The position numbers and the translations under genes are program-made. This document shows, piece by piece, positions 2,666 to 19,275 of a stretch of DNA of 43,599 nucleotides. How positions within the stretch are numbered: the stretch's first letter is position 1; every line of letters begins with the position of its first letter. The stretch is taken from IMG/VR virus record IMGVR_UViG_3300044720_000100, positions 1-43,599 of that record; one strand, written 5' to 3'. The DNA comes from a virus. The notes below the pieces were generated by a model. The model saw only the letters and a program-made list of their open reading frames with translations. It did no database searches and was not told the DNA's origin.

Positions 2666-2684
2666 AGGTCCTCCGTTGGTGTTG

Positions 2685-2705
2685 GTCAACGATGCTCTGG
2701 CCAAC
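2685..2705 (-). promoter_or_regulatory. Start-associated repeat, copy A
   Basis: On the minus strand this reads GTTGGCCAGAGCATC followed by GTTGAC: two half-sites at 15-base spacing. It lies 20-40 bases upstream of the GTG at 2665 and points in the direction of transcription. The same motif occurs at 3460, 11032, 16860, 18616 and 18666. It is a probable binding site for a phage regulator. Confidence 0.6.
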
Positions 2706-2840
2706 AGAAGACGCCTGCGCGGTCCGATAGTCAAGCCGACGTGGCATGTTGGGTTTGTCGTGCCTCGTGCGCCCGTGCGGTAGTGCATCAACTACTTCCG
2801 GCGCGGTCCGATGAAGCGCCGGGCTGTCTCTTGTTGTAGT

Positions 2841-2904
2841 ACCAGGCCTTGAGGGCCTGGTTACTTAGTAGTAACTGCTACTTGCAGGGGGCCTTACGGC
2901 CCCT
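2841..2904. terminator. Three consecutive hairpins in the left control region
   Basis: ACCAGGCC-TTGAG-GGCCTGGT (2841-2861), GTTACT-TAGT-AGTAAC (about 2859-2874) and GGGGCC-TTAC-GGCCCC (2888-2903). They sit between the leftward block (start 2665) and the rightward promoter region near 3110. They could terminate or attenuate transcription in either direction. The last hairpin resembles the GGGCCCC repeats near 19556. No gene is visible here. Confidence 0.5.
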
Positions 2905-3106
2905 AATAGATCTTTACTTAGCTGGCAGTTACTCGCTTCGCTCGTAGTGTACTTAGCTCTACTGACACGGATGCGCGTACCCGCGGCGTGCCCGAGTCAC
3001 CCCGTTGACGTAGCGCACTGCTCCGTGCAAGCTGTTGAGCGTGCAACCTGTCCAGCGGACAGCAACGTTACGATCGTGTATCGCTGCTGGTCATTTGCTT
3101 GTCCTA
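2905..3106. other. Non-coding control DNA upstream of early operon
   Basis: No credible gene. It contains a CGCTTCGCTC word at about 2934, also found twice near 19680 and 19740, and a TTGACG hexamer at 3005-3010 without a good -10 partner. It is probably part of the control region between the leftward block and the rightward early operon. Confidence 0.5.
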
Positions 3107-3142
3107 TTGAGACGGTTGTGCGGTGGTCGAATGTATGTTCGA
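3107..3142 (+). promoter_or_regulatory. Likely early promoter overlapped by a LexA (SOS) box
   Basis: TCGAATGTATGTTCGA at 3127-3142 matches the actinobacterial SOS box TCGAAC-N4-GTTCGA with one mismatch, and it extends to an inverted repeat GTCGAA/TTCGAC. TTGAGA at 3107-3112 and AATGTA at 3130-3135 form a -35/-10 pair with a 17-base spacer, so the box would cover the -10. The rightward genes begin at 3271. If LexA binds here, DNA damage would derepress the early operon directly. The match is seen; binding is inferred. Confidence 0.6.
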
Positions 3143-3270
3143 CAGGCAGGTCGTCACGTTCCGCAACCGCAGTACTAGTCCGTTCGAGTGAGAACGTAAC
3201 GCGTTTGAACAGTCAACGATCACCCAAGTAGAAGCCCGCAACATTCCTCCCCGGACCTCGGAGGGCCGCA

Positions 3271-3438
3271 ATGCCACGCAAATCAGACGGCGATCAATTC
3301 GTTGTCACGTTCACCCGCGGCGGAAGCTACGACGTGAGCGTTCCCGGCTCGTTCGCGCCGGAAGACTGGCCCATCCTGGATCGTGTCGTCGCGGCTGTCC
3401 GCGAGGCTGTCACAGGCGCGGCGGTGGGCCACGCGTAG
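3271..3438 (+). CDS. Small hypothetical protein (55 aa), first early gene
   Basis: ATG at 3271 follows a clear GGAGG. The peptide begins MPRKSDGDQFVVTFTRGG, has a beta-like first half and a helical second half (WPILDRVVAAVREAVTGAAV). There are no cysteines or membrane segments. It is the first gene downstream of the promoter and LexA box, so it is a candidate for an early regulator or host-takeover peptide, but no family is recognised. Confidence 0.65.
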   Translation: MPRKSDGDQFVVTFTRGGSYDVSVPGSFAPEDWPILDRVVAAVREAVTGAAVGHA

Positions 3439-3459
3439 CGTGTCCCCATTGGGTGCTAA

Positions 3460-3480
3460 GTTGGCGAGAGCGTGTTGCTG
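3460..3480 (+). promoter_or_regulatory. Start-associated repeat, copy B
   Basis: GTTGGCGAGAGCGT followed by GTTGCT, 28-48 bases upstream of the ATG at 3508 and in the same orientation. Spacing between half-sites is 14 rather than 15 bases. A downstream GCCAAC (3484-3489) makes an inverted pair with the first GTTGGC. Confidence 0.55.
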
Positions 3481-3507
3481 CTGGCCAACCGGTGGAGGTG
3501 AGATCGC

Positions 3508-3828
3508 ATGGTGACCCTGTACCTGGTGGCCGGTAGCCGCTGCAAGAAGGCGGCCGAGGAGGCCATTCCCGGCGACTTGTGGCCGAAGGTGAAGCAGAAG
3601 TACATCCGGATCAAGAAGGACGTGCCAGCTCGCGGGCACCTGCTGCTCCAGGTCGGCAAAGGCACGCCCGACTTGGAGGCGGAACGCTTCGCCGCCCGTA
3701 AGGGCGCGCTGCTCACCTGCCTGCCCGAGGCGGGCATCTACGTGGAGCAGAAGGTCCGCCAGGCGTTGGACGCCAACACGGATCTGGTGCTGCTGGACGT
3801 GGGCTTGATGAACGTGTCGGTGGTCTGA
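3508..3828 (+). CDS. Hypothetical protein (106 aa)
   Basis: ATG at 3508 with GGAGGTGA eight bases upstream. A 106-residue protein with a basic helical first half (CKKAAEEAIPGDLWPKVKQKYIRIKKD) and an alternating hydrophobic second half (HLLLQVGKGTPDLEAERFAARKGALLTCLPEAG). It ends in VLLDVGLMNVSVV. No known domain is recognised. It starts the run of small early genes and is followed immediately by a coupled zinc-ribbon gene. Confidence 0.75.
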   Translation: MVTLYLVAGSRCKKAAEEAIPGDLWPKVKQKYIRIKKDVPARGHLLLQVGKGTPDLEAERFAARKGALLTCLPEAGIYVEQKVRQALDANTDLVLLDVGLMNVSVV

Positions 3829-4002
3829 GTGGGCGCGTGCGCCCAGTGCGAGGCCGAGCTGAACCCAGACGGACCGAGCTTCTACTTCTGCTCGATGAAA
3901 TGCCAGTTCGCCTGGTCGTGCGCCCAGACCGACAGCTTGTTCAAGTGGACCATGGATTTCGACCACGGCAGGAACTTCCACCCCGAACAGGAGACCTCGT
4001 GA
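3829..4002 (+). CDS. Small zinc-ribbon-like protein (57 aa)
   Basis: A 57-residue peptide with GTG directly abutting the upstream TGA. CAQC at residues 4-7 and CSMKC at 25-29 form two knuckles suited to one zinc ion; a further Cys lies in SCAQTD. The FYFCSMKCQFAW pattern is typical of small phage zinc ribbons. It overlaps the next gene by GTGA. It probably binds nucleic acid or protein, but only the cysteine spacing is evidence. Confidence 0.65.
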   Translation: MGACAQCEAELNPDGPSFYFCSMKCQFAWSCAQTDSLFKWTMDFDHGRNFHPEQETS

Positions 4003-4244
4003 ACACCTGCGGTGGTTGCATCACCACCTGGACCGGCATGGTCATGTGCCACTGCGCCGGGTGCCACAACACGTTTTCGTCCCTAGGACTGTTCGACCGC
4101 CACCGCCGGGGTGGTCGGTGCCGGGAGCCCGGTTCGTGCGTTCTGGGTAAGGACGCGACACCAGCAATGCGGCAAGACGCACGGGGTGTGTGGGTTGGTG
4201 CGGAAGCCAACCCGCGCTGGAGCAAGAAGGAGGCGAACGCGTGA
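3999..4244 (+). CDS. FDXHR-type putative zinc-binding protein
   Basis: An 81-residue protein starting with GTG at 3999 (GTGA overlap with the previous stop). It shows CHCAGCHNTFSSLGLFDRHR: a CxxC pair followed by FDRHR and a later GGRCREPGSC, the signature of the small FDXHR zinc-binding family common in actinobacteriophages. The C-terminal DARGVWVGAEANPRW segment is also typical. The family has no known biochemical function. The upstream extension of the frame to 3837 is rejected because it overlaps the preceding gene. Confidence 0.8.
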   Translation: MNTCGGCITTWTGMVMCHCAGCHNTFSSLGLFDRHRRGGRCREPGSCVLGKDATPAMRQDARGVWVGAEANPRWSKKEANA

Positions 4245-4609
4245 ACGAGCCGAAGGCGAAGTTCGCCGAGGGCGACCTCGTGGTGAACCGTCAGTACGCC
4301 AAGCTTGCTGACGTGCCGACGCTGGTAGTCCTCGATCGTCCGGAGTTGAACACTAAGACGGGGACGTTTTACTACGGCCTGCACTACGTGCAGCGCCCCG
4401 AGCTTGGCTACCCGAATGGCGGGTCCAGCTGGAGCACGGAGGAGAAGTGGCTCCACTTCCCGCAGACGGGCCATGAGCAGCTGCTCGCCATGCAGTACGG
4501 AGCACACGGGCGGGTGCTGCTGACAGCGAAAGCGGCCGAAGCCGCGGTCATCGAGGCGAAGGCTGTGGACGTGACACTGGCCGTGTTCCTCCGGTCGGAG
4601 CCCTCATGA
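4241..4609 (+). CDS. Hypothetical protein (122 aa)
   Basis: GTG at 4241 overlaps the preceding stop and has GAAGGAG upstream. It begins VNEPKAKFAEGDLVV, like a small beta-barrel (KOW- or SH3-like) start, followed by aromatic-rich strands (TGTFYYGLHYVQRPELGY) and a C-terminal Ala-rich helix (AKAAEAAVIEAKAVDV). The family is not recognised. It overlaps the MazG-like gene by four bases, so the two are likely cotranslated. Confidence 0.7.
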   Translation: MNEPKAKFAEGDLVVNRQYAKLADVPTLVVLDRPELNTKTGTFYYGLHYVQRPELGYPNGGSSWSTEEKWLHFPQTGHEQLLAMQYGAHGRVLLTAKAAEAAVIEAKAVDVTLAVFLRSEPS

Positions 4610-4929
4610 TCACAGTCGACGAGTACCAGGCGTGGACCAAACGGTTCGACAACCACAAGGGTCCCGTGCAGGTGCTGGCCTTGGCGCTCGGCCTTGCGGC
4701 CGAGGCGGGCGAGGTGGCCAACCTGTTCGAGCGCCGTTGCCGTGAAGGCGCCGCACCCCTGGACCTGGCCAAGGTGGAAGAAGAGCTGGGCGACGTGCTG
4801 TGGAACGTGGCACGCATCGCCGCCGAGCTGAACATGACGCTGCCGCAGATCTGGACGACCAACATCGCGAAGCTGACCAAGCGCTTCGCCGACAACCTCG
4901 TGTCCGGAAGCGGCAACAGCACCGCTTGA
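4606..4929 (+). CDS. MazG-like nucleotide pyrophosphohydrolase
   Basis: A 107-residue all-helical protein. Residues 30-70 carry the EAGEVANLFER and EEELGDVLWNVARIA motifs, that is the ExxE then ExxD acidic ligands for Mg2+ in the MazG/dCTPase superfamily. These enzymes hydrolyse (d)NTPs to NMP plus PPi. In phages they reshape nucleotide or ppGpp pools. Length is normal for single-domain phage members. The ATG overlaps the preceding stop (ATGA), and the next gene starts inside its stop. Confidence 0.85.
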   Translation: MITVDEYQAWTKRFDNHKGPVQVLALALGLAAEAGEVANLFERRCREGAAPLDLAKVEEELGDVLWNVARIAAELNMTLPQIWTTNIAKLTKRFADNLVSGSGNSTA

Positions 4930-5735
4930 GCACCATCACCAAGCGCTGGTCGCACAGTGCATACGAGGACTACTCCTCGTGCGGGGAGAAGTACCGCCTG
5001 AAGCGGGTCGTGAAGGTCCCCGACCAGCCCGGCCTGGCCCGCACCGCGGGCACCGCCTTCCACTCGTGGTCTGAGGACTACGACAAGGCCGAGCAGGAGT
5101 GGGAGAAGCAAGGCCTGCTCGTTTCGTGGGATGTCTACCTTGAAGCCGCCCTGAAGGCCGAAGAAGAGAAGACCGGCGTCCTGCGCGACAAGTTCACCGT
5201 GTCCGGTCGGGTGTCGAAAGACAAGCCCAACAAGGAAGACCTGACGTTCTGGCGTGACGAGCTGGGGCCAGACCTGGTCTTGAAGTACGCGGACTGGGTG
5301 TCCAACTCGGACTGGGTGATCGCACAAGACCTGCCCGAGGATGCCAACGGCAACACCACCGGTATCGAGTACGAGGTGTCGTACCGCGTGGGCCAGGTGG
5401 AGGAGAAGGGCTACCTGGACCGGGTGTACTACGACCACCTGGGCAACATCGGCGTGGTGGACATCAAGACGTGGTCCCGCAAGAGGACCACCGTTCAGCT
5501 TCCCGGCTACATCCTGGCTTTGCAGAAGCGGGGCGTTGCCGCCACGTGGGGTTCGTACTACCACGCCCGCAAGGGAACCGCTGACGACCCGGTGTTCTAC
5601 GCCTGGGATGAGCACAAGCTCGCCGCCCTGTACGAGCAGGCCGCGGTGATGGAGCAGCAGGGGTTTTACCTGCCGCGTGTGTCCGACGACTGCGGCTGGT
5701 GCTCGGTTCGAGCCCACTGCCAGTTCGCCCTGTGA
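4926..5735 (+). CDS. Cas4/RecB-like PD-(D/E)XK nuclease
   Basis: A 269-residue nuclease starting at TTG 4926, which overlaps the upstream TGA; no other in-frame start is near. The fold motifs are all present: RWSHSAYEDYSSC at the start, GYLDRVYYD, VVDIKTW (Asp-X-Lys, about residue 179) and QLPGYILAL. Cys 19 plus C-terminal Cys 256, 259 and 265 (CGWCSVRAHC) match the 4Fe-4S ligands of Cas4 and AddB-type nucleases. Such enzymes resect DNA ends for recombination. The neighbouring MazG and RecA/DnaB-like genes support a replication/recombination role. No Cas1 or Cas2 and no CRISPR array is present. Confidence 0.88.
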   Translation: MSTITKRWSHSAYEDYSSCGEKYRLKRVVKVPDQPGLARTAGTAFHSWSEDYDKAEQEWEKQGLLVSWDVYLEAALKAEEEKTGVLRDKFTVSGRVSKDKPNKEDLTFWRDELGPDLVLKYADWVSNSDWVIAQDLPEDANGNTTGIEYEVSYRVGQVEEKGYLDRVYYDHLGNIGVVDIKTWSRKRTTVQLPGYILALQKRGVAATWGSYYHARKGTADDPVFYAWDEHKLAALYEQAAVMEQQGFYLPRVSDDCGWCSVRAHCQFAL

Positions 5736-5752
5736 TCCAGAAAGGACAGTCG

Positions 5753-6292
5753 ATGCCTGTCGAGTTCAAGGCCTGGCCGAAGACGCCGCGCCTGTTCCGG
5801 CGCGTCACCATCACGGAGAAGATCGACGGCACCAACGCCGCTGTCATCGTGACGGCCGACGGCGAGGCCGTGGCCCAGTCGCGCAAGCGGCTGATCACCC
5901 CGACCGAAGACAACTACGGCTTCGCCGTCTGGGTCCAGGACCACGCGGACTACCTGGTCGAGACCCTGGGCGAGGGCTACCACTTCGGCGAGTGGTGGGG
6001 GCAGGGCATCCAGCGGCGTTACGGCTTGGACCACAAGCGCTTCTCGCTGTTCAACGTGCGTCGCTGGGTCGGCACGGAGTTCGCGCTGCCCGGCCTGGAC
6101 CTGGTCCCCGTGCTGTACCAGGGCGACCTGAACGACTGGTGCGTCGAGCAGCAGCTGGACCGCCTCCGTCGCCACGGTTCCGTCGCCGCACCCGAGTGGC
6201 CGACGCCCGAGGGGATCTGCGTGTTCCACGAGGACGCGAACCAGGTCTTCAAGGTGCTGCTCGAAAACGACCACCTTTCCAAGTCCGCCTGA
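5753..6292 (+). CDS. RNA ligase family nucleotidyltransferase
   Basis: A 179-residue protein; ATG at 5753 follows GAAAGGA. TEKIDGTNAA (Lys 23) is motif I, where the lysine forms the covalent AMP adduct. SRKR, GEWWGQGIQ, EGICVF and FKVLLEND follow as the later ligase motifs. The layout is that of short Rnl2-like RNA ligases rather than DNA ligases, with no OB domain. It would seal broken RNA, for instance tRNA cut by host anticodon nucleases. The phage carries its own tRNA-Asn at 33503. No polynucleotide kinase is visible, so it would need ends that are already ligatable. Confidence 0.85.
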   Translation: MPVEFKAWPKTPRLFRRVTITEKIDGTNAAVIVTADGEAVAQSRKRLITPTEDNYGFAVWVQDHADYLVETLGEGYHFGEWWGQGIQRRYGLDHKRFSLFNVRRWVGTEFALPGLDLVPVLYQGDLNDWCVEQQLDRLRRHGSVAAPEWPTPEGICVFHEDANQVFKVLLENDHLSKSA

Positions 6293-6308
6293 GAAGAACA
6301 GGAAGCAG

Positions 6309-6809
6309 ATGACCGTCAAGTTCATCGCCCGCATCCCTACTCCCGTGCAGTACGGGTACCTGGAGGTGCACGCCGAAGGGCAGCCGGGCCAGCCCGCCGA
6401 CAGCGTGCAGGCCGAGTTCACCGAGGCGGTGGTCTACGCCGAGGACTACGCGAAGACCATCACCGCGGGCACCGAGGTTCCGGGCGCCACCGAGGCGGCC
6501 GTGCACAATCTTCAGCAGCAGGGTGTGGTCCCGCAGGGCCAGTCCGTGCAGCAGCTGCCGCAGGTGGCGGGCCCCCCGCCGTGGGCTGGCGCCCAGCAGT
6601 CGTTCGCCCAGCCCGCCGATCAGCAGCAGGCCCCGCAGGGGTGGCAGCCTTCGGTCCCGCCACAGCAGGCGCCGAGCGCTGGGCCTTCGTGCCAGCACGG
6701 GCCCGCCAAGTGGGTCCCGCCGGGCGTGAGCAAGCGGACCAACCAGCCGTACACCGGCTTCTGGTCCTGCCAGGCCCCGCAGGGCCAGACGAAGTGCAAG
6801 TTCAACTGA
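6309..6809 (+). CDS. Phage protein with Pro/Gln linker and zinc-ribbon tail
   Basis: A 166-residue protein; ATG after AGGA. Residues 1-70 look like a small beta domain (KFIARIPTPVQYGYLEVHAEG). Residues 70-130 are low-complexity Gln/Pro/Ala. The end is a conserved-looking ribbon: CQHGPAKWVPPGVSKRTNQP, then FWSC and CKFN. I have seen this CxHG...KRTxxPYxxFWSC ending in actinophage proteins near replication genes. A disordered linker between two small domains is reminiscent of SSB-like accessory proteins, but OB-fold evidence is lacking. Confidence 0.75.
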   Translation: MTVKFIARIPTPVQYGYLEVHAEGQPGQPADSVQAEFTEAVVYAEDYAKTITAGTEVPGATEAAVHNLQQQGVVPQGQSVQQLPQVAGPPPWAGAQQSFAQPADQQQAPQGWQPSVPPQQAPSAGPSCQHGPAKWVPPGVSKRTNQPYTGFWSCQAPQGQTKCKFN

Positions 6810-6817
6810 GGCGCTAG

Positions 6818-7618
6818 GTGCTCACAGCCTCGCAGGTCTTCAGGAAGAAGACCGAGGCAGGGCAACCGTTGCCCGTGGTCTGGCAGTCCTTCCTGAACAA
6901 GAAGATCGTCTTTCGCCGAGGACAACTACATCTCACAGCAGCCGGGCCGGGCGCCGGAAAGTCGGTGCTCGCGCTCAGCCAAGCGGTGCACATGCAGGTA
7001 CCCACCCTGTACATCTCTCTCGACGGGGATGAGCTGACGGTGGGGTCACGCCTCATCCAGGTGGCCACAAGGTGCGACCAGGAAACCGCGGAGCAGGCCG
7101 TGCTGGGAAAGTCGACACTGGCTTTCGACGTGGCACGGCTTGTCCCGTGGTTGACATTCACCTACCCGTCATCGGCTACAACCGATGACATCGCCCAGCA
7201 CGTGTGGGCGTACGCGGAAGCGCGGGGCGAATGGCCGCACCTGATCGTGGTGGACAACCTGTCGGACGTTGCGGACGAGGACGACGCGTCCGCTTTGAAC
7301 CGGGCGATGGACGACCTGGCAATCCTGGCCCGCGAAACACAGGCTGCTGTGCACGTGCTCCACCACGTGGGCGGGGAATACGAGGACGGCAACAAGGTGG
7401 TGCCGTTGTCGGGGCTCCGCTACAAGGTGGGCAAGAAACCGTCCTTGGTGTTGACGCTGTGCAACGGGGCGGCCGACGACCAGATATGGGTGTCGGCGGT
7501 GAAGAACAGGTTCGGCCCCAAAGACACAGCCGGACTGAAGGTCCGAGCAGAACTGAGGGTCAACTTCGCAACGATGCAAGCATGTGACCCTTTCCTAATC
7601 TCAGACGGGAGGGCGTGA
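6818..7618 (+). CDS. RecA/DnaB-like AAA ATPase
   Basis: A 266-residue P-loop ATPase starting with GTG at 6818 after a GAGG. Walker A is GPGAGKS (residues 43-49) and Walker B is LIVVDNL (about 141-147), followed by an HVLHHVGG stretch typical of RecA/KaiC/DnaB and RepA-type helicases. The N-terminal DnaB domain is absent, so this is a small single-domain form, like plasmid RepA or phage recombination mediators. The split primase lies downstream, consistent with a helicase or recombinase partner. Helicase versus recombinase cannot be decided from sequence alone. Confidence 0.82.
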   Translation: MLTASQVFRKKTEAGQPLPVVWQSFLNKKIVFRRGQLHLTAAGPGAGKSVLALSQAVHMQVPTLYISLDGDELTVGSRLIQVATRCDQETAEQAVLGKSTLAFDVARLVPWLTFTYPSSATTDDIAQHVWAYAEARGEWPHLIVVDNLSDVADEDDASALNRAMDDLAILARETQAAVHVLHHVGGEYEDGNKVVPLSGLRYKVGKKPSLVLTLCNGAADDQIWVSAVKNRFGPKDTAGLKVRAELRVNFATMQACDPFLISDGRA

Positions 7619-7767
7619 TGAGCGCCAGCACAATTGAGGACGAGGGCGATGTGGCTGCGCTCGCACACATCCTCTACGAGGGGGGTGTGGGTACCGCCAG
7701 GGCAGAGAAGGTGGCACGACACCTCATCGCGGTGACCGACCCCGAGTTCGGAGAGGACCAGGACTGA
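7618..7767 (+). CDS. Small hypothetical protein (49 aa)
   Basis: ATG at 7618 overlaps the upstream TGA and its own stop overlaps the next ATG, so it is embedded in a coupled chain. The acidic 49-residue peptide contains ALAHILYEGGVGTARAEKVARHLIAV, an amphipathic helical pair. No domain is recognised. The tight stop-start overlaps on both sides are the main evidence that it is real. Confidence 0.65.
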   Translation: MSASTIEDEGDVAALAHILYEGGVGTARAEKVARHLIAVTDPEFGEDQD

Positions 7768-7985
7768 TGGAAGAGTTCGAAGAGTTCGACTTGTTGGAGC
7801 GACTCGTTGACTTCGGCAACGCCGTAGGCGAGGACTACAACGAGGGCATCAACGGGTACCTCACCGCCGAGTGGGAGACGGCTGCCGACGGCGACCGGCA
7901 GCTCCGTGTCGACTACCAGTTCTCCACGGAGGAGGGGCTGGAAAGCGGCGGCGTCAAGCGGTACAAGTTCGTCGAGGTGCTGTAG
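7767..7985 (+). CDS. Small acidic hypothetical protein (72 aa)
   Basis: ATG at 7767 overlaps the preceding stop by one base, and the endolysin ATG follows its stop immediately. It is very acidic at the start (MEEFEEFDLLERLVDFG) with beta-like strands later (RQLRVDYQFSTEEG, VKRYKFVEVL). No cysteines or membrane segment. Position next to the endolysin does not by itself imply a lysis role. Function unknown. Confidence 0.65.
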   Translation: MEEFEEFDLLERLVDFGNAVGEDYNEGINGYLTAEWETAADGDRQLRVDYQFSTEEGLESGGVKRYKFVEVL

Positions 7986-10541: not shown

Positions 10542-10774
10542 TGAGGTACGAGGAAGAGTGCGCTCCAGCAGCTCCTGAAGCGGTCGGGGACAACCCCCAG
10601 GCGGAGATCGAGCGGCAGTCCGAAAGGTGGTACCAGCTCGGTGAGCAGTACCGCGCGGAGCAGCGTGAGCTGGACGAACTCGCCCTCGTCAAGGGCCGCA
10701 AGGCGGACCTGTACTTCGGGGCCGCCAGTGCCATCGTCTCCGACTCCTCGAACGTGAAGGCGGCCAAGCGATGA
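10541..10774 (+). CDS. Hypothetical protein (77 aa), coiled-coil
   Basis: GTG at 10541 overlaps the primase stop by one base. A charged, mostly helical protein: AEIERQSERWYQLGEQYRAEQRELDELALVKG has heptad-like spacing suggesting a coiled coil. No cysteines or membrane segments. It overlaps the next gene by four bases. Function unknown. Confidence 0.65.
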   Translation: MRYEEECAPAAPEAVGDNPQAEIERQSERWYQLGEQYRAEQRELDELALVKGRKADLYFGAASAIVSDSSNVKAAKR

Positions 10775-11130
10775 CCGAGTTCCAGAGGTACGGCATCCAC
10801 GCACAGGTGCGTGCGGATGGGGATCTGTACGTCAACGCCCCGACGGTGACGCTCGGGGAAGCCGAGGGCCGTGAGCTGCTGGGGTTCCTGATGACCGAGT
10901 ACCACCAGCTGGACGTGGACAGGCGGGTTGTCGACGACGAGCCGAGCGAGGACGACACGGCGTTCAACGCCGCTGTCACCGACCTGGAGTACGAGAACCG
11001 CGAGGTACCCGTCATCGAGACGGCCACCGATGTTGGCGAGAGCACCGTTGCCTCGGTGTCCACTCCGGACCAGAAGCCGCCGATCGCCAAGCGGGCGCCC
11101 AACGGGCACCGCAACACCTCGCAGACCTGA
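10771..11130 (+). CDS. Hypothetical protein (119 aa)
   Basis: ATG at 10771 overlaps the upstream stop. Residues 1-60 look like a compact alpha/beta domain (FQRYGIHAQVRADGDLYVN, LGEAEGRELLGFLMTEYHQL). The second half is acidic then basic and Pro-rich, likely disordered. A copy of the GTTGGC...GTTGCC repeat at 11032-11052 codes for VGESTVA within this tail; another unrelated gene (16845) carries the same peptide from the same DNA motif. No family recognised. Confidence 0.7.
   Translation: MTEFQRYGIHAQVRADGDLYVNAPTVTLGEAEGRELLGFLMTEYHQLDVDRRVVDDEPSEDDTAFNAAVTDLEYENREVPVIETATDVGESTVASVSTPDQKPPIAKRAPNGHRNTSQT
11032..11052 (+). promoter_or_regulatory. Repeat element, copy C (inside a gene)
   Basis: GTTGGCGAGAGCACC followed by GTTGCC, with 15-base half-site spacing. 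It is in the coding region of the 10771 gene and about 97 bases upstream of the GTG at 11149, in the direction of transcription. It is nearly identical to copies at 16860 and 18616. Confidence 0.5.
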
Positions 11131-11148
11131 CCCGAAGGGAGGCCGGGC

Positions 11149-11343: not shown

Positions 11344-11356
11344 GGAGCCAGCTGTC

Positions 11357-11725: not shown

Positions 11726-11726
11726 G

Positions 11727-12649: not shown

Positions 12650-12658
12650 GAGGTAGAC

Positions 12659-13119: not shown

Positions 13120-13510
13120 CCCCGACCTGTGCCGCATCCCCGAGCCGCACGTGCACGAGGGCTTTGCCGTGAGGTACATCGAGACGGTGGAGCCCGCCAT
13201 CAAGCCACCCGTGCTGGACCCGTTCGACAAGGTTGTGGCCGAGGTGCTCGCACTCAACCGCCGCAAGCGAGCCGACTACACCGACAACAAGGACCCATGG
13301 GCCAACTTCCGGGACTCCTCCCGGCAGGTGTCAGCCCGGCCCGGCACCTCGGTTGAGGTGCTGATCGCCACCAAGCAGAGCAGGTTGCGCCAGCTGTTGC
13401 AGAAGGGGCGGGAGGCGAACAACGAGAGCGTGCGGGACACGTTGCTGGACCGTGCGGTGTACTCGCTCATCTCCCTCGCCATGTACGACGAAGGTCTGTA
13501 CGCGGACTGA
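13112..13510 (+). CDS. Nmad1/DUF1599-like protein
   Basis: A 132-residue protein. The signature is KRADYTDNKDPWANFRDSSR followed by IATKQSRLRQLLQKG and NNESVRDTLLDRAVYSL, the DY...DPxANF...K..RL...DtllD pattern of helical phage proteins linked to the nucleotide-modification-associated domain 1 / DUF1599 group, related to all-alpha NTP pyrophosphatases. It may act on nucleotides together with the MazG-like protein at 4606. It overlaps the upstream gene by 8 bases and is the last gene of the rightward operon, with a terminator right after it. Confidence 0.65.
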   Translation: MCSPDLCRIPEPHVHEGFAVRYIETVEPAIKPPVLDPFDKVVAEVLALNRRKRADYTDNKDPWANFRDSSRQVSARPGTSVEVLIATKQSRLRQLLQKGREANNESVRDTLLDRAVYSLISLAMYDEGLYAD

Positions 13511-13522
13511 CCTCGAACGGCA

Positions 13523-13558
13523 AGAAGCCCCCCGGTGTGAACGTGCCGGGGGGCTTCT
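13523..13558 (+). terminator. Strong terminator of the early/middle operon
   Basis: AGAAGCCCCCCGG and CCGGGGGGCTTCT form a perfect 13-bp stem with loop TGTGAACGTG. It lies 13 bases after the last rightward gene and before the leftward gene ending at 13582. It may work both ways. Confidence 0.85.
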
Positions 13559-13581
13559 GCATGTCCTGACGGTTCCAGCCG

Positions 13582-13773
13582 TCAGGGTGTCGGGGTTGTG
13601 CGTCTCCGCTTGTCGAGCCACAGTCCTCCCGCCACTGGCGCGGCGGCAACGGCGACGTAGAGAAGTAGCACCAGCCCTGACCCTGTGGTACCTGAGGCCA
13701 GGTTAAGTATCAGTCCGAGCAGCAGGAAAGCGGAGACCGCTGCTCCCACCGCAGTGAAAACCCATCTCGGCAT
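13582..13773 (-). CDS. Small membrane protein (63 aa)
   Basis: ATG at 13773 preceded by a textbook AAGGAGGT five bases away, so the longer frame to 13803 is rejected. Two membrane helices are clear: WVFTAVGAAVSAFLLLGLIL and LVLLLYVAVAAAPVAGGLWL, followed by a basic C-terminus (DKRRRTT). It belongs to the leftward unit that starts at 14225. Such small membrane proteins next to regulators can serve as superinfection-exclusion proteins; that is inference from position only. Confidence 0.75.
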   Translation of the reverse strand: MPRWVFTAVGAAVSAFLLLGLILNLASGTTGSGLVLLLYVAVAAAPVAGGLWLDKRRRTTPTP

Positions 13774-13815
13774 GTCGACCTCCTTCCTCTGCTTATCGCC
13801 CACCAGCCCGCGGCG

Positions 13816-13941
13816 TTAGCCCGCGTAGGGATTGTGGTCGGGTGCGGCCTGGCCGATACGGTCCACACAGTCGGGGCACAACGGCATCAACACCTGGTCC
13901 AGCAGGTAGTAGGCGAGCACCGCCCGTTCGCACACCGTCAT
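13816..13941 (-). CDS. Small Cys-containing protein, start uncertain
   Basis: From ATG 13941 this gives 41 residues: MTVCERAVLAYYLLDQVLMP then LCPDC and a short polar tail. The frame stays open upstream, and the extra sequence (GIVWKLDVQTQTHAFTADDF...) looks protein-like, but no ATG/GTG/TTG start is found before it runs into the 14028 gene. The true start could lie near 14020 with an unusual codon, or the two genes could be joined by a frameshift. CxxC could bind zinc. Function unknown. Confidence 0.5.
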   Translation of the reverse strand: MTVCERAVLAYYLLDQVLMPLCPDCVDRIGQAAPDHNPYAG

Positions 13942-14027
13942 GTACCCTTCGCGCTCCTCGCCTTTGAAATCGTCGGCAGTGAAGGCGTGGGTCTGTGTCT
14001 GTACGTCCAGCTTCCAGACGATGCCGC

Positions 14028-14225
14028 CTACAGGCAGCCGGGGTCGACTCTCATCACCGGCCGGGCGCCCGCGGTCTCGTCCAGGACCACGCGGCGCCTC
14101 ACTACCAGCGTCGGGTCCGGTCGGGCGCTGATCGTGGTCATCCTCTGGCCATGCCAGCGTCCCAACAGGTATGCGACCACGGCTGTTGCCGTGACCACTA
14201 CCCATATCAGTGTTGGTGTCCACAC
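14028..14225 (-). CDS. Single-pass membrane protein (65 aa)
   Basis: GTG at 14225 with GAGGTGA just upstream. Residues 3-21 (TPTLIWVVVTATAVVAYLL) form one membrane helix; the remainder is basic and cytoplasmic-like (GRWHGQRM, VVRRRVVLD). It is the first leftward gene and lies divergently from the HTH-DUF5753 regulator, with two palindromic operators between them. Probably controlled by that regulator. Function unknown. Confidence 0.65.
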   Translation of the reverse strand: MWTPTLIWVVVTATAVVAYLLGRWHGQRMTTISARPDPTLVVRRRVVLDETAGARPVMRVDPGCL

Positions 14226-14259
14226 GTGTCACCTCATCCCATCGAATGAGGCCCAGCCT

Positions 14260-14309
14260 AGGGGTGTGATCACACCCCTGGCCATACATCGAACGGGTGT
14301 AATCACACC
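14260..14309. promoter_or_regulatory. Two palindromic operators between divergent genes
   Basis: AGGGGTGTGATCACACCCCT (14260-14279) is a perfect 20-bp palindrome. GGTGTAATCACACC (14296-14309) repeats its core with one central mismatch. Centre-to-centre distance is about 33 bp, close to three helical turns. They lie upstream of the HTH regulator (ATG 14338) and of the divergent membrane gene (start 14225). Autoregulation by the HTH protein is the simplest reading. Confidence 0.75.
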
Positions 14310-14337
14310 GTCTAGCCCGGCGTCTACGATCATCGCC

Positions 14338-15186
14338 ATGCCTGCTACACCTAACGAAGCGAAGCGCACTTTGGGTGCGCTCCTCGTCGGGTTGCGTGAG
14401 GGTGCGGGACTCTACGCTGCTGATACGGCTCGCCATCTTGGCGTCACCCCAACCACGGTAGGCAGGTACGAAGCTGGTACAACGGTTCCCCAGGATGAGG
14501 ATCTTGAAACCATTCTTAACCTGTATGGAGCAACCGAAGACCAGCGTTCGGCCGTGCACGCTGCCCTGCTTGACGCACGGGCAGGTGTGGTCAGGTTGCA
14601 GCACGCCAGTGCCGTGTCCCCCAAGTTCCGCTCGTTCCTGCGTGCGGAGGCTGACGCTGAAGGCGTCCGGACCTACGCCCCTCTCGCCGTACCCGGACTG
14701 CTGCAAACACCCGCCTACGCCAGCACCGTGCAGCAGAAGGGGCGTGCCGTGACCGACCCGGCCGTACCGGTGGACCGCATCGTTGCCGCACGCATGAGCA
14801 GGCAGCAGCGGTTGAGCCTGGACGTGGTGCCGCTGCAACTGCACGCGCTGCTTGATGAGATCGTTGTCCTGCGGTGCGCAGCGGAAGGCAAACTGGGGGA
14901 TGACCAGCTGGTGCACCTGCTCCAAGCAGGGGCGCAGAAGAACATCACCATCCAGGTGGTACCCACCAGTGCCGGGTTGTACGGCGCCATGTCGAGCCCT
15001 GTCACCCGCTTCCAGTACCCCGGCAAAGGGGACACGGCAGCGGTGTACCTGGAGTACCCCGGTGGCGGGGCGTGGGTGCGAGGCAAAGGTGTCGGCAAGT
15101 ACGAGCAGCTGTTGGACGACATCCAGCGCTGCGCCCTCGGGCATGACGAATCGTTGACGTTGATCGCAGCAGCAAGGCGGACATGA
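14338..15186 (+). CDS. XRE-family HTH regulator with DUF5753 (WhiJ-like)
   Basis: A 282-residue regulator. Residues 5-65 are an XRE helix-turn-helix: LGALLVGLREGAGLYAADTA, then TARHLGVTPTTVGRYEAGTT and a Glu-rich helix. From about residue 95 it is DUF5753: YAPLAVPGLLQTPAYASTV, RMSRQQRL, LHALLDEIVVLR, QNITIQVVP-like QKNITIQVVPTSAG and GGGAWVRGKGVGKYEQLLDD. This architecture is abundant in Streptomyces and relatives (WhiJ, AbaA-type) and is normally paired with a DUF397 protein, as here. It is a candidate lysogeny regulator or a host-development mimic. ATG 14338 is chosen because the longer frame would cross the operators. Confidence 0.88.
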   Translation: MPATPNEAKRTLGALLVGLREGAGLYAADTARHLGVTPTTVGRYEAGTTVPQDEDLETILNLYGATEDQRSAVHAALLDARAGVVRLQHASAVSPKFRSFLRAEADAEGVRTYAPLAVPGLLQTPAYASTVQQKGRAVTDPAVPVDRIVAARMSRQQRLSLDVVPLQLHALLDEIVVLRCAAEGKLGDDQLVHLLQAGAQKNITIQVVPTSAGLYGAMSSPVTRFQYPGKGDTAAVYLEYPGGGAWVRGKGVGKYEQLLDDIQRCALGHDESLTLIAAARRT

Positions 15187-15362
15187 ACCCCACGACGTGG
15201 CGTAAGAGCAGCTTCAGTAACGACCAGGGCGCCTGCGTTGAGGTTGCCAGCACACTGGCCGCGGTACGGGACAGCAAGAACGGGGCAGGCCCGAGCCTGT
15301 GCTTCGGCAGGCACCAGCTCGGCGCGTTCATCGGCGCAGTCAAGCAAGGCAGGCTGGGCTAG
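15183..15362 (+). CDS. DUF397 small partner protein
   Basis: A 59-residue protein; ATG overlaps the regulator stop (ATGA). It carries the DUF397 hallmarks: TWRKSSFSNDQGACVEVA at the start, VRDSKNGAG in the middle, and a LxF-like GAFIGAVKQG ending. DUF397 genes sit next to XRE-DUF5753 regulators throughout streptomycetes and are thought to modulate the partner's DNA binding. The stop-start overlap implies 1:1 synthesis. The length (about 60) is normal. Confidence 0.87.
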   Translation: MNPTTWRKSSFSNDQGACVEVASTLAAVRDSKNGAGPSLCFGRHQLGAFIGAVKQGRLG

Positions 15363-15367
15363 GACGC

Positions 15368-15408
15368 AGACCAGCCCCCGCCGGGTGAGTAGCGAGGGCT
15401 GGTCTTTC
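15368..15408 (+). terminator. Terminator after the DUF5753/DUF397 pair
   Basis: GACCAGCCC and GGGCTGGTC form a 9-bp stem (15369-15404) with an 18-base loop, followed by TTTC. It lies just after the DUF397 stop. The stretch up to 15458 holds no gene. Confidence 0.75.
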
Positions 15409-15458
15409 ACATCGGGTAGGGGAGCGCGCAACGTGTCGCGCTCAACCCTGCCCGAGGT

Positions 15459-15629
15459 CTAGTGGTGAGGCAGGTCTGCCTCCATGTACTTCTCGGCTAT
15501 GCGCACGTCGTTCGCAGCCTGCGACAACAAGCTGATCTCGGCCAGCGTCAGGTCGGTGTGCCGTTCAAGCACACCCTTGATGAGGCTCATCGCCAAGTCC
15601 AGCTCGGCCTTGTCCTGCGGTGCCAGCAT
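15459..15629 (-). CDS. Small helical protein (56 aa)
   Basis: ATG at 15629 with AAGGGTGA upstream, stop TAG at 15459. The 56-residue peptide begins MLAPQDKAELDLAMSLIKG, continues VLERHTDLTLAEISLLSQAA and ends with YMEADLPHH; it is almost entirely helical. It is the last gene of the leftward accessory operon. No family recognised; small helical proteins of this type may be antitoxin- or anti-sigma-like, which cannot be shown here. Confidence 0.55.
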   Translation of the reverse strand: MLAPQDKAELDLAMSLIKGVLERHTDLTLAEISLLSQAANDVRIAEKYMEADLPHH

Positions 15630-15667
15630 GGCGTGCTCACCCTTCGCTTGCGTTGTCGCTACCCTTG

Positions 15668-15766
15668 TGCGCCGCCGGGATTCGAACCCGGCCCGCCGGA
15701 CTGCTAGACCAGTCCACCTGAGGGGCTGTTTGTTCCCTCGTGCGTGCTTCCGCTACACCACGGCGC
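15668..15766 (-). tRNA. tRNA-like element, anticodon arm abnormal
   Basis: On the minus strand GCGCCG (from 15766) pairs with CGGCGC near 15669. GTGT-AGCGGAA-GCAC is a good D-arm resembling actinobacterial tRNA-Glu, and CCGGG-TTCGAAT-CCCGG is a perfect T-arm. Between them are about 50 bases instead of about 22: GGACTG-GTCTAG-CAGTCC makes a stem, but neither it nor the GAGGG...CCCTC stem gives a normal 7-base anticodon loop. It could be a degenerate tRNA, one with a long variable arm or an insertion, or a tRNA mimic. No amino acid can be assigned. Confidence 0.4.
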
Positions 15767-15773
15767 TGTCGTG

Positions 15774-15986
15774 CTACGAGCAGTAGCCCGCCACCTTGCC
15801 GCCGATGCGTGCCGCGGACAGCGCGCACGCACTGCCGCCCGAACCCCAGCCCTGCGCACGGGTGGTGACCGTGGCGCCCAGCCTCATCGCCTCCGGCAGG
15901 GTGAGGGTGCGGGTCGCAGCCTCCAGCTGCTCGGTGCTGATCGTCTCGGACAGCTTCTTCACCGGGTCGTGCGTGATGGTGCTCAT
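15774..15986 (-). CDS. Small hypothetical protein (70 aa)
   Basis: ATG at 15986 overlaps the upstream gene stop (ATGA). The 70-residue peptide begins MSTITHDPVKKLSETISTEQ, is helical through TLTLPEAMRLGATVTTRAQG and has a Gly/Ser/Ala-rich end with two cysteines (SACALS, GYCS). Between its stop and the next leftward gene lies the tRNA-like element. Function unknown. Confidence 0.6.
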   Translation of the reverse strand: MSTITHDPVKKLSETISTEQLEAATRTLTLPEAMRLGATVTTRAQGWGSGGSACALSAARIGGKVAGYCS

Positions 15987-16468
15987 GCTTCGTTCCCTTC
16001 GGGCATCTTGAACGTGAGGTCGATGTTGTTCAGCAGCGCGTACTCCTCCAACCAGTCGGCGATGTTCGGCTTGCCAGGCTCAGCCTCGCTGGCAGCACGA
16101 GCCCACCCGTGGACGTCGTTGAGGTGGATGACCAGCGCGAGCAGGCTCGCCTCACCGATCGCGCACCGACACTGTGAGCAAGCCAAGTTGGGATAGCCGT
16201 ACGCGAGGTAGTCCTTGCACCTGCCCCGATCGCACGTCGAGCACCCGACCGGGCAAGCGGCGTGTGAGCCCTGGATACCGGGGACAGCGCCATATATCAC
16301 GTCCCCGCTGGCACTCCAGTCCTGGGTGACGGGCACCGACTTGCCGAGCAGCTGGTACGTGACAATCAAGTTCTCGTACAAGCTGACCTGCTTCACGGCG
16401 GCAGGCCAGGCGGTGCTCACCGCCTCCGCTTTCGTAAACAACTCGAAGTTGAACGGGCCGATAGCCAT
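15983..16468 (-). CDS. Cys-rich hypothetical protein (161 aa)
   Basis: ATG at 16468 (TGATG overlap with the upstream stop; a GTG three bases earlier is also possible). The centre has a dense cysteine cluster: ACPVGCSTCDRGRCKDYL and LACSQCRCAIG, enough for one or two zinc or iron-sulfur sites. The C-terminal half is helical (ASLLALVIHLNDVHGWARAA, ADWLEEYALLNN), and VIHLNDVHGW resembles patterns in phage early proteins. Part of the leftward accessory operon with WhiB. Function unknown. Confidence 0.7.
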   Translation of the reverse strand: MAIGPFNFELFTKAEAVSTAWPAAVKQVSLYENLIVTYQLLGKSVPVTQDWSASGDVIYGAVPGIQGSHAACPVGCSTCDRGRCKDYLAYGYPNLACSQCRCAIGEASLLALVIHLNDVHGWARAASEAEPGKPNIADWLEEYALLNNIDLTFKMPEGNEA

Positions 16469-16677
16469 CACGCCACCTGCCCCGACAGCCAGCGCTCCAC
16501 GTCAGCGGCGAACTTGGCCGCCAACCCACGTGCCATGCACTCCGGGCAACCCTTCATCCGCTCGGCGTGGTGCATGCAGTCGTGGTCGGTCAGACGGTGC
16601 CAGTAGTACGGCTCGGTGGTGCGCCCACCGCACGGGCAGCGCCCGAGCGCACGACCCAACGTCAGCTCACCGTCCAT
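16468..16677 (-). CDS. Small zinc-binding-like protein (69 aa)
   Basis: ATG at 16677 with AGGGA about 10 bases upstream (a GTG at 16680 is possible). Contains CPCGGRTTEPYYWHRLTDHD, CMHHAERMKGCPECMARG: a CxC and a CxxC plus several His, suited to one or two zinc ions. Ends in a helix (AAKFAADVERWLSG). A short, coupled gene in the leftward operon. Function unknown. Confidence 0.65.
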   Translation of the reverse strand: MDGELTLGRALGRCPCGGRTTEPYYWHRLTDHDCMHHAERMKGCPECMARGLAAKFAADVERWLSGQVA

Positions 16678-16689
16678 CACGCACCATCC

Positions 16690-16845
16690 CTACCGGCAGG
16701 AGGTGGCGAAGTGGAGCAGTAGCGGCCCACCACCCACCCCCACCAGGTGGTGGCAGATCGGGCAGTTGCCCGTGGTGCGCTGGATGCCCCGCTCCTTCAG
16801 GTAAGCGGCCATCTGCTTGTCCTTCGCGCTACCGGCAGCAGACAT
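16690..16845 (-). CDS. Small zinc-finger-like protein (51 aa)
   Basis: ATG at 16845 overlaps the upstream TGA by one base; stop TAG at 16690. The peptide begins MSAAGSAKDKQMAAYLKERG and continues IQRTTGNCPICHHLVGVGGG; CPICHH plus a later LLLHFATSC give a CxxCH...H...C set typical of a small zinc finger. A regulatory repeat (16860-16880) lies 15-35 bases upstream of this start. Function unknown. Confidence 0.6.
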   Translation of the reverse strand: MSAAGSAKDKQMAAYLKERGIQRTTGNCPICHHLVGVGGGPLLLHFATSCR

Positions 16846-17270
16846 CACGAACCACCCTTCCCAACCGTGCTCTCGCCAACTTCGCTGTCCAACGTGAGCA
16901 CGTCGGTCAGGTAGGTGCGCTCGATGGCGTCCGCGATCTCGGCGAACGTCTTGCCGCAGTCGTCGTTCATCCTGACCAGGGAGACTTCCTTGCCTGGCGA
17001 TGTGTTCACGTACGGACTCGCACCATGCAGCCCGAGGTGCGCTTGGACATCAGGAGGCAAGTTGCCTTCGAAGTTGTCGAACAGGTGGGTACCAGCCTGC
17101 GACACCCGCTCAGTCAGGCCCAGCCGCTCGGCGAACACCTCGCACGCCACGCCCAAACAGCAGTGTCTCGTTCCCTGCTCGTTGTCCTGCTTCAGGGCAC
17201 CCGTGCCCTGCGTGTACTCGCCCGACCTCAACGCAGCCACCCATTCGGCTACTGCCTCACGATTCACCAT
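16845..17270 (-). CDS. CCLG-type actinophage protein
   Basis: ATG at 17270 with AGGAAAGG upstream. Contains VAEWVAALRSGEYTQGTGAL and RHCCLGVACEVFAERLGL, the pattern (ALRSGEYxQGxGAL...CCLGVxC) of a protein found in a wide range of bacteria and phages, often near other small accessory genes. The later NDDCGKTFAEIADAIERTYL helix also recurs in that family. Function is not established. The 3-prime end codes VGESTVG from a copy of the regulatory repeat. The start overlaps the WhiB stop by 14 bases. Confidence 0.78.
   Translation of the reverse strand: MVNREAVAEWVAALRSGEYTQGTGALKQDNEQGTRHCCLGVACEVFAERLGLTERVSQAGTHLFDNFEGNLPPDVQAHLGLHGASPYVNTSPGKEVSLVRMNDDCGKTFAEIADAIERTYLTDVLTLDSEVGESTVGKGGS
16860..16880 (-). 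promoter_or_regulatory. Start-associated repeat, copy D
   Basis: On the minus strand GTTGGCGAGAGCACG followed by GTTGGG, 15-base half-site spacing. It lies inside the 3-prime end of the CCLG gene and 15-35 bases upstream of the ATG at 16845, pointing in the direction of transcription. Confidence 0.55.
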
Positions 17271-17700
17271 TACCCTCACCCTTTCCTGCTGTTGCCTTAG
17301 CCGTGCGTTCCCGCAGTCTGCGCAGCTCCAGGTGCGCTGCCCGTTCCTCGGGCGTCATCGCCTCACGCTTGATGCGCCTACGTTCCCGTTCCCGCCCGGC
17401 CCGCTTCTGCTTCTGCTCGGGCGGCATGGTCGCCCACTGGTTGCGGCTGCCATCCGGAACGCACTGCCTGCCTGACGCGGTGCGCTTCACCTCACCCTGC
17501 TTGTTCCGCTGCACCCCACCCCAGATACCGAACGGCGTGCGGTTCGCCGCGGCGTATGCCGCACAGGCTGACTGCACCGGGCACAACCCGCACACCCGCT
17601 GCGCCTCACGCGCCTCAGCCGTACCGGGGTGGGCGAACCACAGTTCCGGGTCGTCACCACGGCACAACCCGCGCCCCATCCACGAGGTGTCGCGCTTCAC
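17257..17700 (-). CDS. WhiB-family iron-sulfur transcription factor
   Basis: A 147-residue WhiB-like protein from GTG 17700. The four cluster ligands are Cys 13, Cys 37, Cys 40 and Cys 46 (GLCRG...VCGLCPVQSAC), followed by the GIWGG turn at about 58-62. The C-terminal half is unusually long, Arg/Lys-rich and helical (RAGRERERRRIKREAMTPEE), giving a basic DNA-binding tail. WhiB proteins bind a 4Fe-4S cluster and act with sigma factors only in actinobacteria and their phages. Mycobacteriophage TM4 gp49 is the precedent, blocking host WhiB2 and superinfection. It starts inside the stop of the membrane-anchored gene upstream. Confidence 0.92.
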   Translation of the reverse strand: MKRDTSWMGRGLCRGDDPELWFAHPGTAEAREAQRVCGLCPVQSACAAYAAANRTPFGIWGGVQRNKQGEVKRTASGRQCVPDGSRNQWATMPPEQKQKRAGRERERRRIKREAMTPEERAAHLELRRLRERTAKATAGKGEGNGES

Positions 17701-18008
17701 GGCCCGAACACATCCTGCTTGCAGTGGGCCTCAGCGTGGTAGTACGCCATGCAGTACTGGTACGCCTGCTCGTCGGAGACGGGGCCGCACTGGCGATTGC
17801 CCATAGTCCGGCAATCCCAACCAGGGTCGTCTTCCTGAAGACGCGATTGCGACTGCACTACGCGTACCTGGGACGGCACAGAAACGCTGGCCGGGACGGT
17901 CGGGTGGGTTGGCGAACCGAACAGCGCCACGCCCATGGACATGACACCCAGAACAGCAGCGGTGACGGGTGCGAACACCATCACGAAGATGACCAGCCTG
18001 CGGACCAC
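17697..18008 (-). CDS. Membrane-anchored protein with extracytoplasmic Cys
   Basis: I place the start at GTG 18008, giving 103 residues; a longer frame to 18197 would cover the neighbouring gene. Residues 1-30 are one hydrophobic helix (LVIFVMVFAPVTAAVLGVMS), acting as a signal anchor. The remainder is polar, Ser/Val/Gln-rich, then DPGWDCRTMGNRQCGPVSDE and QYCMAYYHAEAHC: four cysteines that could form disulfides outside the cell. A surface role such as exclusion of other phages is possible. Its stop overlaps the WhiB start. Confidence 0.65.
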   Translation of the reverse strand: MVRRLVIFVMVFAPVTAAVLGVMSMGVALFGSPTHPTVPASVSVPSQVRVVQSQSRLQEDDPGWDCRTMGNRQCGPVSDEQAYQYCMAYYHAEAHCKQDVFGP

Positions 18009-18009
18009 G

Positions 18010-18339
18010 TCACACGCTCGCAACCGAGTTGAGCAGAGCCAACCATTCACGCTCAGTGAAACCGCTGGACATGTGAGCCGACAGTTCCTCGAATGCCCCC
18101 GTGTAGTTGCCGTCCCAACCGTGCGGGCGAGAACCGTCCGCCAACGACAGCCACGTGTGCGGCCGGTACGGCGCCGATTCGGAAGGGGACTGCACACCCT
18201 CGCCCCGCAGCCACTCAGCCACCTCAGCCAGGTGGTCGAACGCGTGCGTCACGCTGTCAACGCCGCGCTGGGTCGGTTCGTCCTGACCTTCTTCCCACGG
18301 TTCGTAGACCGTGGTGTACACCGTGATCTCGTAAGCCAT
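18010..18339 (-). CDS. Acidic hypothetical protein (109 aa)
   Basis: ATG at 18339 with GAGGTG upstream. Begins MAYEITVYTTVYEPWEEGQD, then a helix (VDSVTHAFDHLAEVAEWLRG), an aromatic middle (PYRPHTWLSLADGSRPHGWD) and a final helix. No cysteines or membrane segment. The GW/D and E-rich character fits small phage inhibitors of host enzymes, but no family is recognised. It is the second gene of the leftward accessory operon. Confidence 0.65.
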   Translation of the reverse strand: MAYEITVYTTVYEPWEEGQDEPTQRGVDSVTHAFDHLAEVAEWLRGEGVQSPSESAPYRPHTWLSLADGSRPHGWDGNYTGAFEELSAHMSSGFTEREWLALLNSVASV

Positions 18340-18435
18340 TCGAATACACCTCACCCATCAGTACTGCTCATCCAAAGCGAATCGTCAGTTCTTGGAAAGG
18401 CTCAACAGCGTGAGCCCAACCAACAGCGGGACGAG

Positions 18436-18582
18436 TCAGACCCCGTGAACCGCGAGCAACCGCAGTTCGGCCGCAGCGTTCAGGTAGTGGTGCACCCGTG
18501 ACGGCACAGAGCCGACCGAACGCAAGTGTCTGGCGTAAGCGGTCAACCGCCTGCTTGCCTTGATGTACGTCGCCCTGTCCAT
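18436..18582 (-). CDS. Small basic helical protein (48 aa)
   Basis: ATG at 18582 with GGGTGAGGG upstream; stop TGA at 18436. The peptide begins MDRATYIKASRRLTAYARHL and continues RSVGSVPSRVHHYLNAAAEL; it is basic and fully helical. It is the first gene of the leftward accessory operon, with the divergent repeat pair at 18616-18686 upstream. Could bind DNA. Between its stop and the next gene (18339) about 96 bases hold nothing recognisable. Confidence 0.55.
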   Translation of the reverse strand: MDRATYIKASRRLTAYARHLRSVGSVPSRVHHYLNAAAELRLLAVHGV

Positions 18583-18615
18583 GTCCCTCACCCTTCGTCC
18601 ACCGTGTTGGTGCTC

Positions 18616-18686
18616 GCCAACCATGCTCTCGCCAACAACCAGCACACACCGCCAAACGGGTGAACGTTGGCCAGAGTTGTGTTGGC
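18616..18686. promoter_or_regulatory. Divergent pair of the GTTGGC repeat (copies E and F)
   Basis: Minus strand 18636-18616: GTTGGCGAGAGCATG followed by GTTGGC. Plus strand 18666-18686: GTTGGCCAGAGTTGT followed by GTTGGC. Each has two half-sites 15 bases apart, and the two copies point away from each other across a 29-bp gap. An extra inverted half-site, GTTGG, is at 18606-18610. Copy E lies 34-54 bases upstream of the ATG at 18582. A likely operator or promoter pair for the leftward operon and the rightward late control region. Confidence 0.6.
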
Positions 18687-19266: not shown

Positions 19267-19275
19267 GTTGGCGAG

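Follow-up and report, generated by a model that had tools for sequence, protein, structure and literature searches.

The record IMGVR_UViG_3300044720_000100 of the virus database IMG/VR was analysed over its whole length of 43,599 nucleotides, to which we refer as the window, with regard to a short asymmetric repeat that lies near the starts of early genes and to the repressor gene at the left end of the record. The layout is that of a temperate phage, taken here to be a prophage of a soil bacterium, with early and accessory genes from 1 to 18.6 kilobases (kb) and with terminase, portal, capsid and tail genes running rightward from 19.9 kb. The repeat can be written out as GTTGGCGAGAGCACGGTTG, a core part GTTGGCSAGAGC and then GTTG. 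Its copies, and the genes at the two ends of the record, are as follows (plus and minus denote the strand).

1..474, plus: repressor gene of 157 amino acids, its ATG at base 1 of the record; placed by sequence in the family of L5 gp71, R4 gp29 and the TipsytheTRex repressor.
2685..2705, minus: site 1, GTTGGCCAGAGCATCGTTGAC; 40 bases 5' of the GTG start at 2665, heading a leftward operon, with TTGACT 29 bases upstream.
3460..3480, plus: site 2, GTTGGCGAGAGCGTGTTGCTG, with the second GTTG at +14; 48 bases 5' of the ATG at 3508, heading the long rightward early operon.
11032..11052, plus: site 3, GTTGGCGAGAGCACCGTTGCC; within the 3' end of gene 10771-11130 and 117 bases 5' of the start of gene 11149, a stoperator-like position.
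16860..16880, minus: site 4, GTTGGCGAGAGCACGGTTGGG; within the 3' end of gene 16845-17279 (minus) and 35 bases 5' of the ATG at 16845, again a stoperator-like position.
18606..18610, plus: inverted GTTGG (half site) adjoining site 5.
18616..18636, minus: site 5, GTTGGCGAGAGCATGGTTGGC; 54 bases 5' of the ATG at 18582, heading the second leftward operon.
18666..18686, plus: site 6, GTTGGCCAGAGTTGTGTTGGC; back to back with site 5, in the leader of the rightward late operon.
19267..19277, plus: site 7, the core GTTGGCGAGAG with no GTTG at +15; in the leader of the late operon.
42565..43599, minus: integrase-like gene, its ATG at the last base of the record.

The pattern GTTGGCSAGAG has seven exact matches in the record, beginning at 2705 (minus), 3460 (plus), 11032 (plus), 16880 (minus), 18636 (minus), 18666 (plus) and 19267 (plus), whereas 0.10 are expected from dinucleotide shuffles and none of 100 shuffles reached seven. 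Read backwards, the same pattern has no match in the record, and an unsupervised analysis of 12-mers placed the motif second in the window. When the whole record was scanned with a 24-bp (base pair) weight matrix, the seven sites scored 21.6 to 33.1 bits and the next best place 11.9, a value within the range of the maxima obtained from ten simulated genomes (11.1-15.7 bits); since this leaves a clear gap below the seven, there is no degenerate tail of weaker sites. Allowing two mismatches gave no excess (42 matches against 49 expected). Ten of the first eleven positions are invariant and the remaining one is G or C, and past the core nothing but GTTG is repeated, five sites having it at +15 and one at +14; the downstream halves of these six read GTTGAC, GTTGCT (the one at +14), GTTGCC, GTTGGG, GTTGGC and GTTGGC. 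An initial annotation, made from the sequence before this analysis, had listed six copies, all of which we recovered at their places, and had described the second half as GTTGRC or GTTGCC, of which the spacing of 14 to 15 bases holds in six sites but the conserved part shrinks to GTTG. It had also named two half copies: the one at 19267 is in fact a full 11-bp core, and the one at 18606 does contain GTTGG, but inverted and with nothing beyond these five bases. The enrichment over shuffled sequence that it had left to be checked is borne out by the counts above.

All seven sites are oriented with transcription (p = 0.008, one-sided), and four of them begin 35 to 54 bases 5' of a start codon, so that the directional, start-proximal character that had been attributed to the repeat is confirmed. 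By our own approximate gene calls, under which about 8% of the record is non-coding, five of the seven lie in non-coding DNA (p about 7e-5); the remaining two (11032 and 16880) each fall within the 3' end of a gene, where the reading frame gives VGESTV in both cases. Every site is to the left of the terminase and structural genes. Operons are headed by sites 1, 2 and 5; the late operon has a 1.1-kb leader, which contains sites 6 and 7, and sites 3 and 4 are internal to operons, at the ends of genes. Sites 5 and 6 (18616-18686) stand back to back, 30 bp apart, between the leftward operon and the late leader. Site 7 is directly 3' of a GC-rich inverted repeat (ACGGGCCTCC/GGAGGCCCGT).

Relatives of the window allow the placement of the repeat to be compared between genomes. 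Its terminase is 77% identical to that of a 6.8-kb viral contig (L008) and 67-68% identical to that of a prophage of Lentzea sp. NBRC 102530, and the nearest annotated phages by this protein are Beephvirinae Streptomyces phages (WRightOn, Percastrophe) at about 37%. The Lentzea prophage (NZ_BSTF01000038 and an adjoining contig, overlapping by 127 bases) is the closest complete relative, and a terminase search of 392 genomes of the Lentzea family gave no relative besides it. A count of 11-mers in this prophage flagged AGTTTCCGACA, and a repeat, GTTTCCRACATGAGA, is present at three operon heads. One copy (L180 +3604) lies 5' of the ortholog of gene 3508, in the same gap and after the same small gene as site 2. 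Another (L149 -4482) lies 5' of the small gene that heads the operon beside the late leader, the counterpart of site 5. The third is at the start of the leftward operon that lies below the repressor and includes a relative of gene 2018-2665. With these three copies as the sole seeds and up to 3 mismatches allowed, a scan of the 43-kb prophage genome found just three further matches (0.5 expected), all within the 219-bp gap between integrase and repressor, where the copies occur in both orientations and one overlaps the likely repressor promoter, as judged from the sequence. The Lentzea element has no GTTG at +15, and it was not surfaced by the unsupervised 12-mer analysis. Because different repeats occupy equivalent gaps in the two phages, the positions of the element have been kept and its sequence has changed. 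The repressors are 25% identical, as against about 70% for structural genes, in line with the changed sites. The initial annotation would have given up its motif if the element were absent upstream of orthologous genes in relatives; the literal sequence is indeed absent in Lentzea, but its place in these gaps is taken by a different repeat, which is the result expected if repressor and sites diverge together.

Assignment of the 1-474 product to a family was approached through sequence profiles. As a lone query it gave weak matches in annotated phages. The Lentzea repressor, used as a stepping stone, matched the annotated immunity repressors of phiHau3 (R4-like; E 4e-4) and Stasia (cluster A; E 9e-4), and the records of R4 and phiHau3 describe their repressors as similar to L5 gp71. 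We draw on a profile (A3) of nine R4-like and cluster A repressors, built without the window and Lentzea proteins. This profile matched the window repressor (hhalign 93.5%, E 2.3e-7; hmmsearch E 1.7e-6) and the Lentzea repressor (97.1%, E 4.9e-11), and in an hmmsearch of 16,797 open frames the 1-474 product was the only window protein matched; against the helix-turn-helix (HTH) protein with a DUF5753 domain it gave no match (0.1%). A family profile that includes the window and Lentzea proteins matches the structure of the TipsytheTRex repressor bound to DNA (7r6r) with E 6.7e-34. By these profile matches the 1-474 product is a divergent member of the L5/R4 repressor family. The suggestion that a phage regulator binds the repeat is probably right, and among the proteins that had been proposed for this role the 1-474 product was aptly named.

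Taken together, these comparisons make it very probable that the seven elements are asymmetric sites at which the immunity repressor encoded by the prophage itself binds DNA, serving as operators and, possibly in a few cases, as stoperators. We infer that in a lysogen a single repressor molecule would bind each site as a monomer, through its N-terminal HTH and a C-terminal 'stoperator' domain, and would silence the adjoining genes. Where sites head operons (1, 2 and 5/6, the last two arranged back to back), the repressor would use them as operators and block the initiation of transcription; sites 3, 4 and 7, which are internal to operons, terminal in them or part of the late leader, may be stoperators at which it would block the elongating polymerase. 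The common direction of the sites would then follow, since an elongation block works in one orientation only, and such uniformity agrees with the polar nature of L5-type silencing. One and a half turns downstream, the GTTG may serve as a second contact or be bound by a second monomer. In a bolder form of this idea, the GTTGGC...GTTG pair phased at 14 to 15 bp would accommodate two repressor molecules in tandem, or one in a new register, and the lineage would have converted the monomeric L5-type stoperator system into a small number of cooperative operators that head operons, with elongation no longer blocked in structural genes; this seems to us rather unlikely.

Several observations weigh against the repressor-site reading. 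The sites are few, seven as compared with 16 in R4 and as many as 30 in cluster A, and at 18-19 bp the core together with GTTG exceeds the L5 site, which has 13 bp. The matrix scan of the record found no site to the right of 19277, that is, none in the structural operon. Two of the regions that contain sites gave no good sigma-70 promoter. GTTGGCSAGAG was not found in multiple copies in contig L008, the Lentzea prophage or any of 14 IMG/VR contigs matched by portal, and among the matches listed in a pattern scan of IMG/VR no contig had two copies, the matches being single ones per contig. An AlphaFold model of the repressor, made from two sequences, was poor (predicted local distance difference test, pLDDT, 62) and a fold search with it found nothing, so the family assignment rests on sequence profiles. 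Finally, the repressor's own control region lies outside the record. Both ends of the record are start codons, those of the repressor and integrase genes, and the record therefore seems to have been trimmed at gene boundaries; as it is cut exactly at these two genes, the gap that they share is missing from the window, and further copies presumably lie there. Because dispersal through the structural operon, the mark of stoperator-rich as opposed to operator-only systems, is not seen, our claim is the narrower one of operators and a few possible stoperators of an L5/R4-family repressor, and not a full cluster A stoperator system.

We also considered that the sites might serve another factor. Two further regulators are encoded in the record, an HTH_31-DUF5753 protein (gene ending at 15186, plus) and a WhiB-like protein (17257-17700, minus), both with counterparts in the Lentzea prophage (that of the WhiB-like protein seen as a reading frame in its DNA), and either might bind the repeat as an activator or repressor. 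The DUF5753 proteins of the two phages, however, are one family (phrog_9908, both E < 1e-42), yet the elements differ completely; the protein is unrelated to the L5/R4 repressors, and in Lentzea the element is concentrated in the gap between integrase and repressor, the place for autoregulation of a repressor. WhiB-type regulators usually work through a sigma factor, which we count against the WhiB-like protein, and we regard the involvement of either regulator as improbable. A promoter element specific to the phage or host, or a site for a host regulator such as an AdpA-like protein, would suit directional sites 5' of operons, and the repeat fits nine of the ten bases of the AdpA consensus, TGGCSNGWWY. 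The distance to a -10-like box is not constant, though, sites 3 and 4 are inside genes, and a regulator or sigma factor that serves the whole host would have no need of the different sequence of the Lentzea relative. Moreover, the 9.5-Mb (megabase) genome of the Lentzea host has 7 exact cores, none of them with GTTG at +14 or +15, as compared with seven cores in the 43.6-kb window alone, and this explanation seems to us very unlikely.

Action in RNA, which the initial annotation had entertained, would make the repeat an element of 5' leaders that controls translation through a hairpin or a leader-binding protein. Its position 35-54 bases 5' of starts would suit this, and CCAAC, which follows sites 1, 2 and 5, permits local hairpins there. 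It does not follow sites 3, 4, 6 and 7, however, and we found just two consensus pairs with no compensatory change, hence no conserved structure; ten of the first eleven positions are fixed by base and not by pairing, two sites lie within coding 3' ends, one of them 117 bp from the next start, and the Lentzea copies occur in both orientations within one gap. Rfam gave no match at the sites. We think there is very little chance that the repeat works in this way, and binding of DNA by the immunity repressor remains our preferred explanation.

The genes that adjoin sites 1, 2, 4 and 5 are the following.

2018..2665, minus: phrog_8332, function not known; proposed target of site 1.
3508..3828, plus: 106 amino acids, first gene after site 2, no family match; ortholog at L180 3673-3984 (plus) in the Lentzea prophage.
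16690..16845, minus: small gene of 51 amino acids, 3' of site 4.
18436..18582, minus: small gene of 48 amino acids, 3' of site 5; in the Lentzea prophage its counterpart comes first in the same operon.

Gene 2018-2665 contains a 12-bp tandem repeat in eleven copies (2103-2294), which encodes a peptide repeat of the AAWGAARG type. The late leader contains a conserved, non-coding AT-rich block, GTGTTTGTTATGTAGAGAGAGATATATATGTAACTCT, at 18995-19040 with a G-rich tract before it; the block is common to the window, contig L008 (about 283-322) and the Lentzea prophage (L149, about 4803-4845), the three aligning with 73% mean column identity over 238 columns, and is perhaps an origin or a packaging-related element. 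On the minus strand at 15668-15762 there is a tRNA-like sequence with a GGGTTCGAATCCC arm and a weak match to mascRNA, for which neither ARAGORN nor Rfam at its gathering score made a call. The Lentzea prophage has a weak tRNA-Sec-like match (L149 2753-2833, minus), and both may possibly be decayed tRNA genes. Another relative, contig IMGVR_UViG_3300049168_000050, has nine copies of a word close to TGGACACACACA, at 18770 and between 33970 and 39734 (eight of the nine between 33.9 and 39.8 kb), which is probably another phage-specific gene-start repeat.

Among known systems, the start-associated sequence of cluster K phages (PMC3203893) is also asymmetric, mostly in one orientation and confined to the non-structural half of the genome. 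It reads GGGATAGGAGCCC, however, lies 3-7 bp from the start and includes the Shine-Dalgarno sequence, whereas the window element differs in sequence; we rejected identity with it because the window sites are 35-54 bases from starts and apart from the Shine-Dalgarno sequence. The initial annotation was correct that the motif differs in sequence both from this element and from L5 stoperators. Its further proposal of a new start-associated type, distinct from stoperators, found no support, as stoperator sequences vary with each repressor (PMC6550527) and the regulator next to these sites is of the L5/R4 family. The TipsytheTRex repressor binds an asymmetric 13-bp site plus flanks as a monomer, by means of an N-terminal HTH and a 'stoperator' domain, and reversal of L5-type sites abolishes repression (PMC9283540). 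With L5 and TipsytheTRex (7r6r; PMC9283540, PMC6550527) the window shares an asymmetric short repeat that keeps to one direction with respect to transcription and sits in small gaps close to starts and stops, as well as a repressor from the same sequence family, which has an HTH at its N terminus and another domain at its C terminus. It differs in the sequence of the sites (GTTGGCSAGAGC...GTTG as opposed to the 13-bp GGTGG-TGTCAAG), in the added downstream GTTG and in their number and range, with seven sites in the record against 20-30 and a structural operon that is free of them.

The Arquatrovirinae (cluster BD Streptomyces phages) R4 and phiHau3 offer a further comparison, R4 having been reported to use a repressor-stoperator system (PMC10276819). 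As a positive control, the same word count returned 16 copies of TGTGCAAGTGT in R4 and 15 of GTGTGATAGAC in phiHau3, running along transcription in nearly all cases. These phages resemble the window in repressor family (R4 gp29) and in having directional repeats; unlike in the window, their 15-16 copies extend to structural genes, and the virion genes differ. Rhodococcus cluster CA phages have a comparable set of sites with yet another consensus (PMC5721134). Because the consensuses of R4, phiHau3 and cluster CA differ, the sequence of the site is expected to differ from phage to phage. The window element is real and ordinary in kind, its novelty lying in its sequence and in its host range. 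With it the L5/R4 repressor-operator scheme reaches prophages of the Pseudonocardiales type, whose virion genes are unrelated, and the list of sites directly predicts the promoters that would be silent in a lysogen. The closest comparison is with the Lentzea prophage, a relative over the whole genome that has a repeat in the same gaps and adds a cluster between integrase and repressor; in these two related phages repressor and site sequence have both changed completely while the site positions have been kept, which makes the pair a natural test case for the evolution of immunity specificity.

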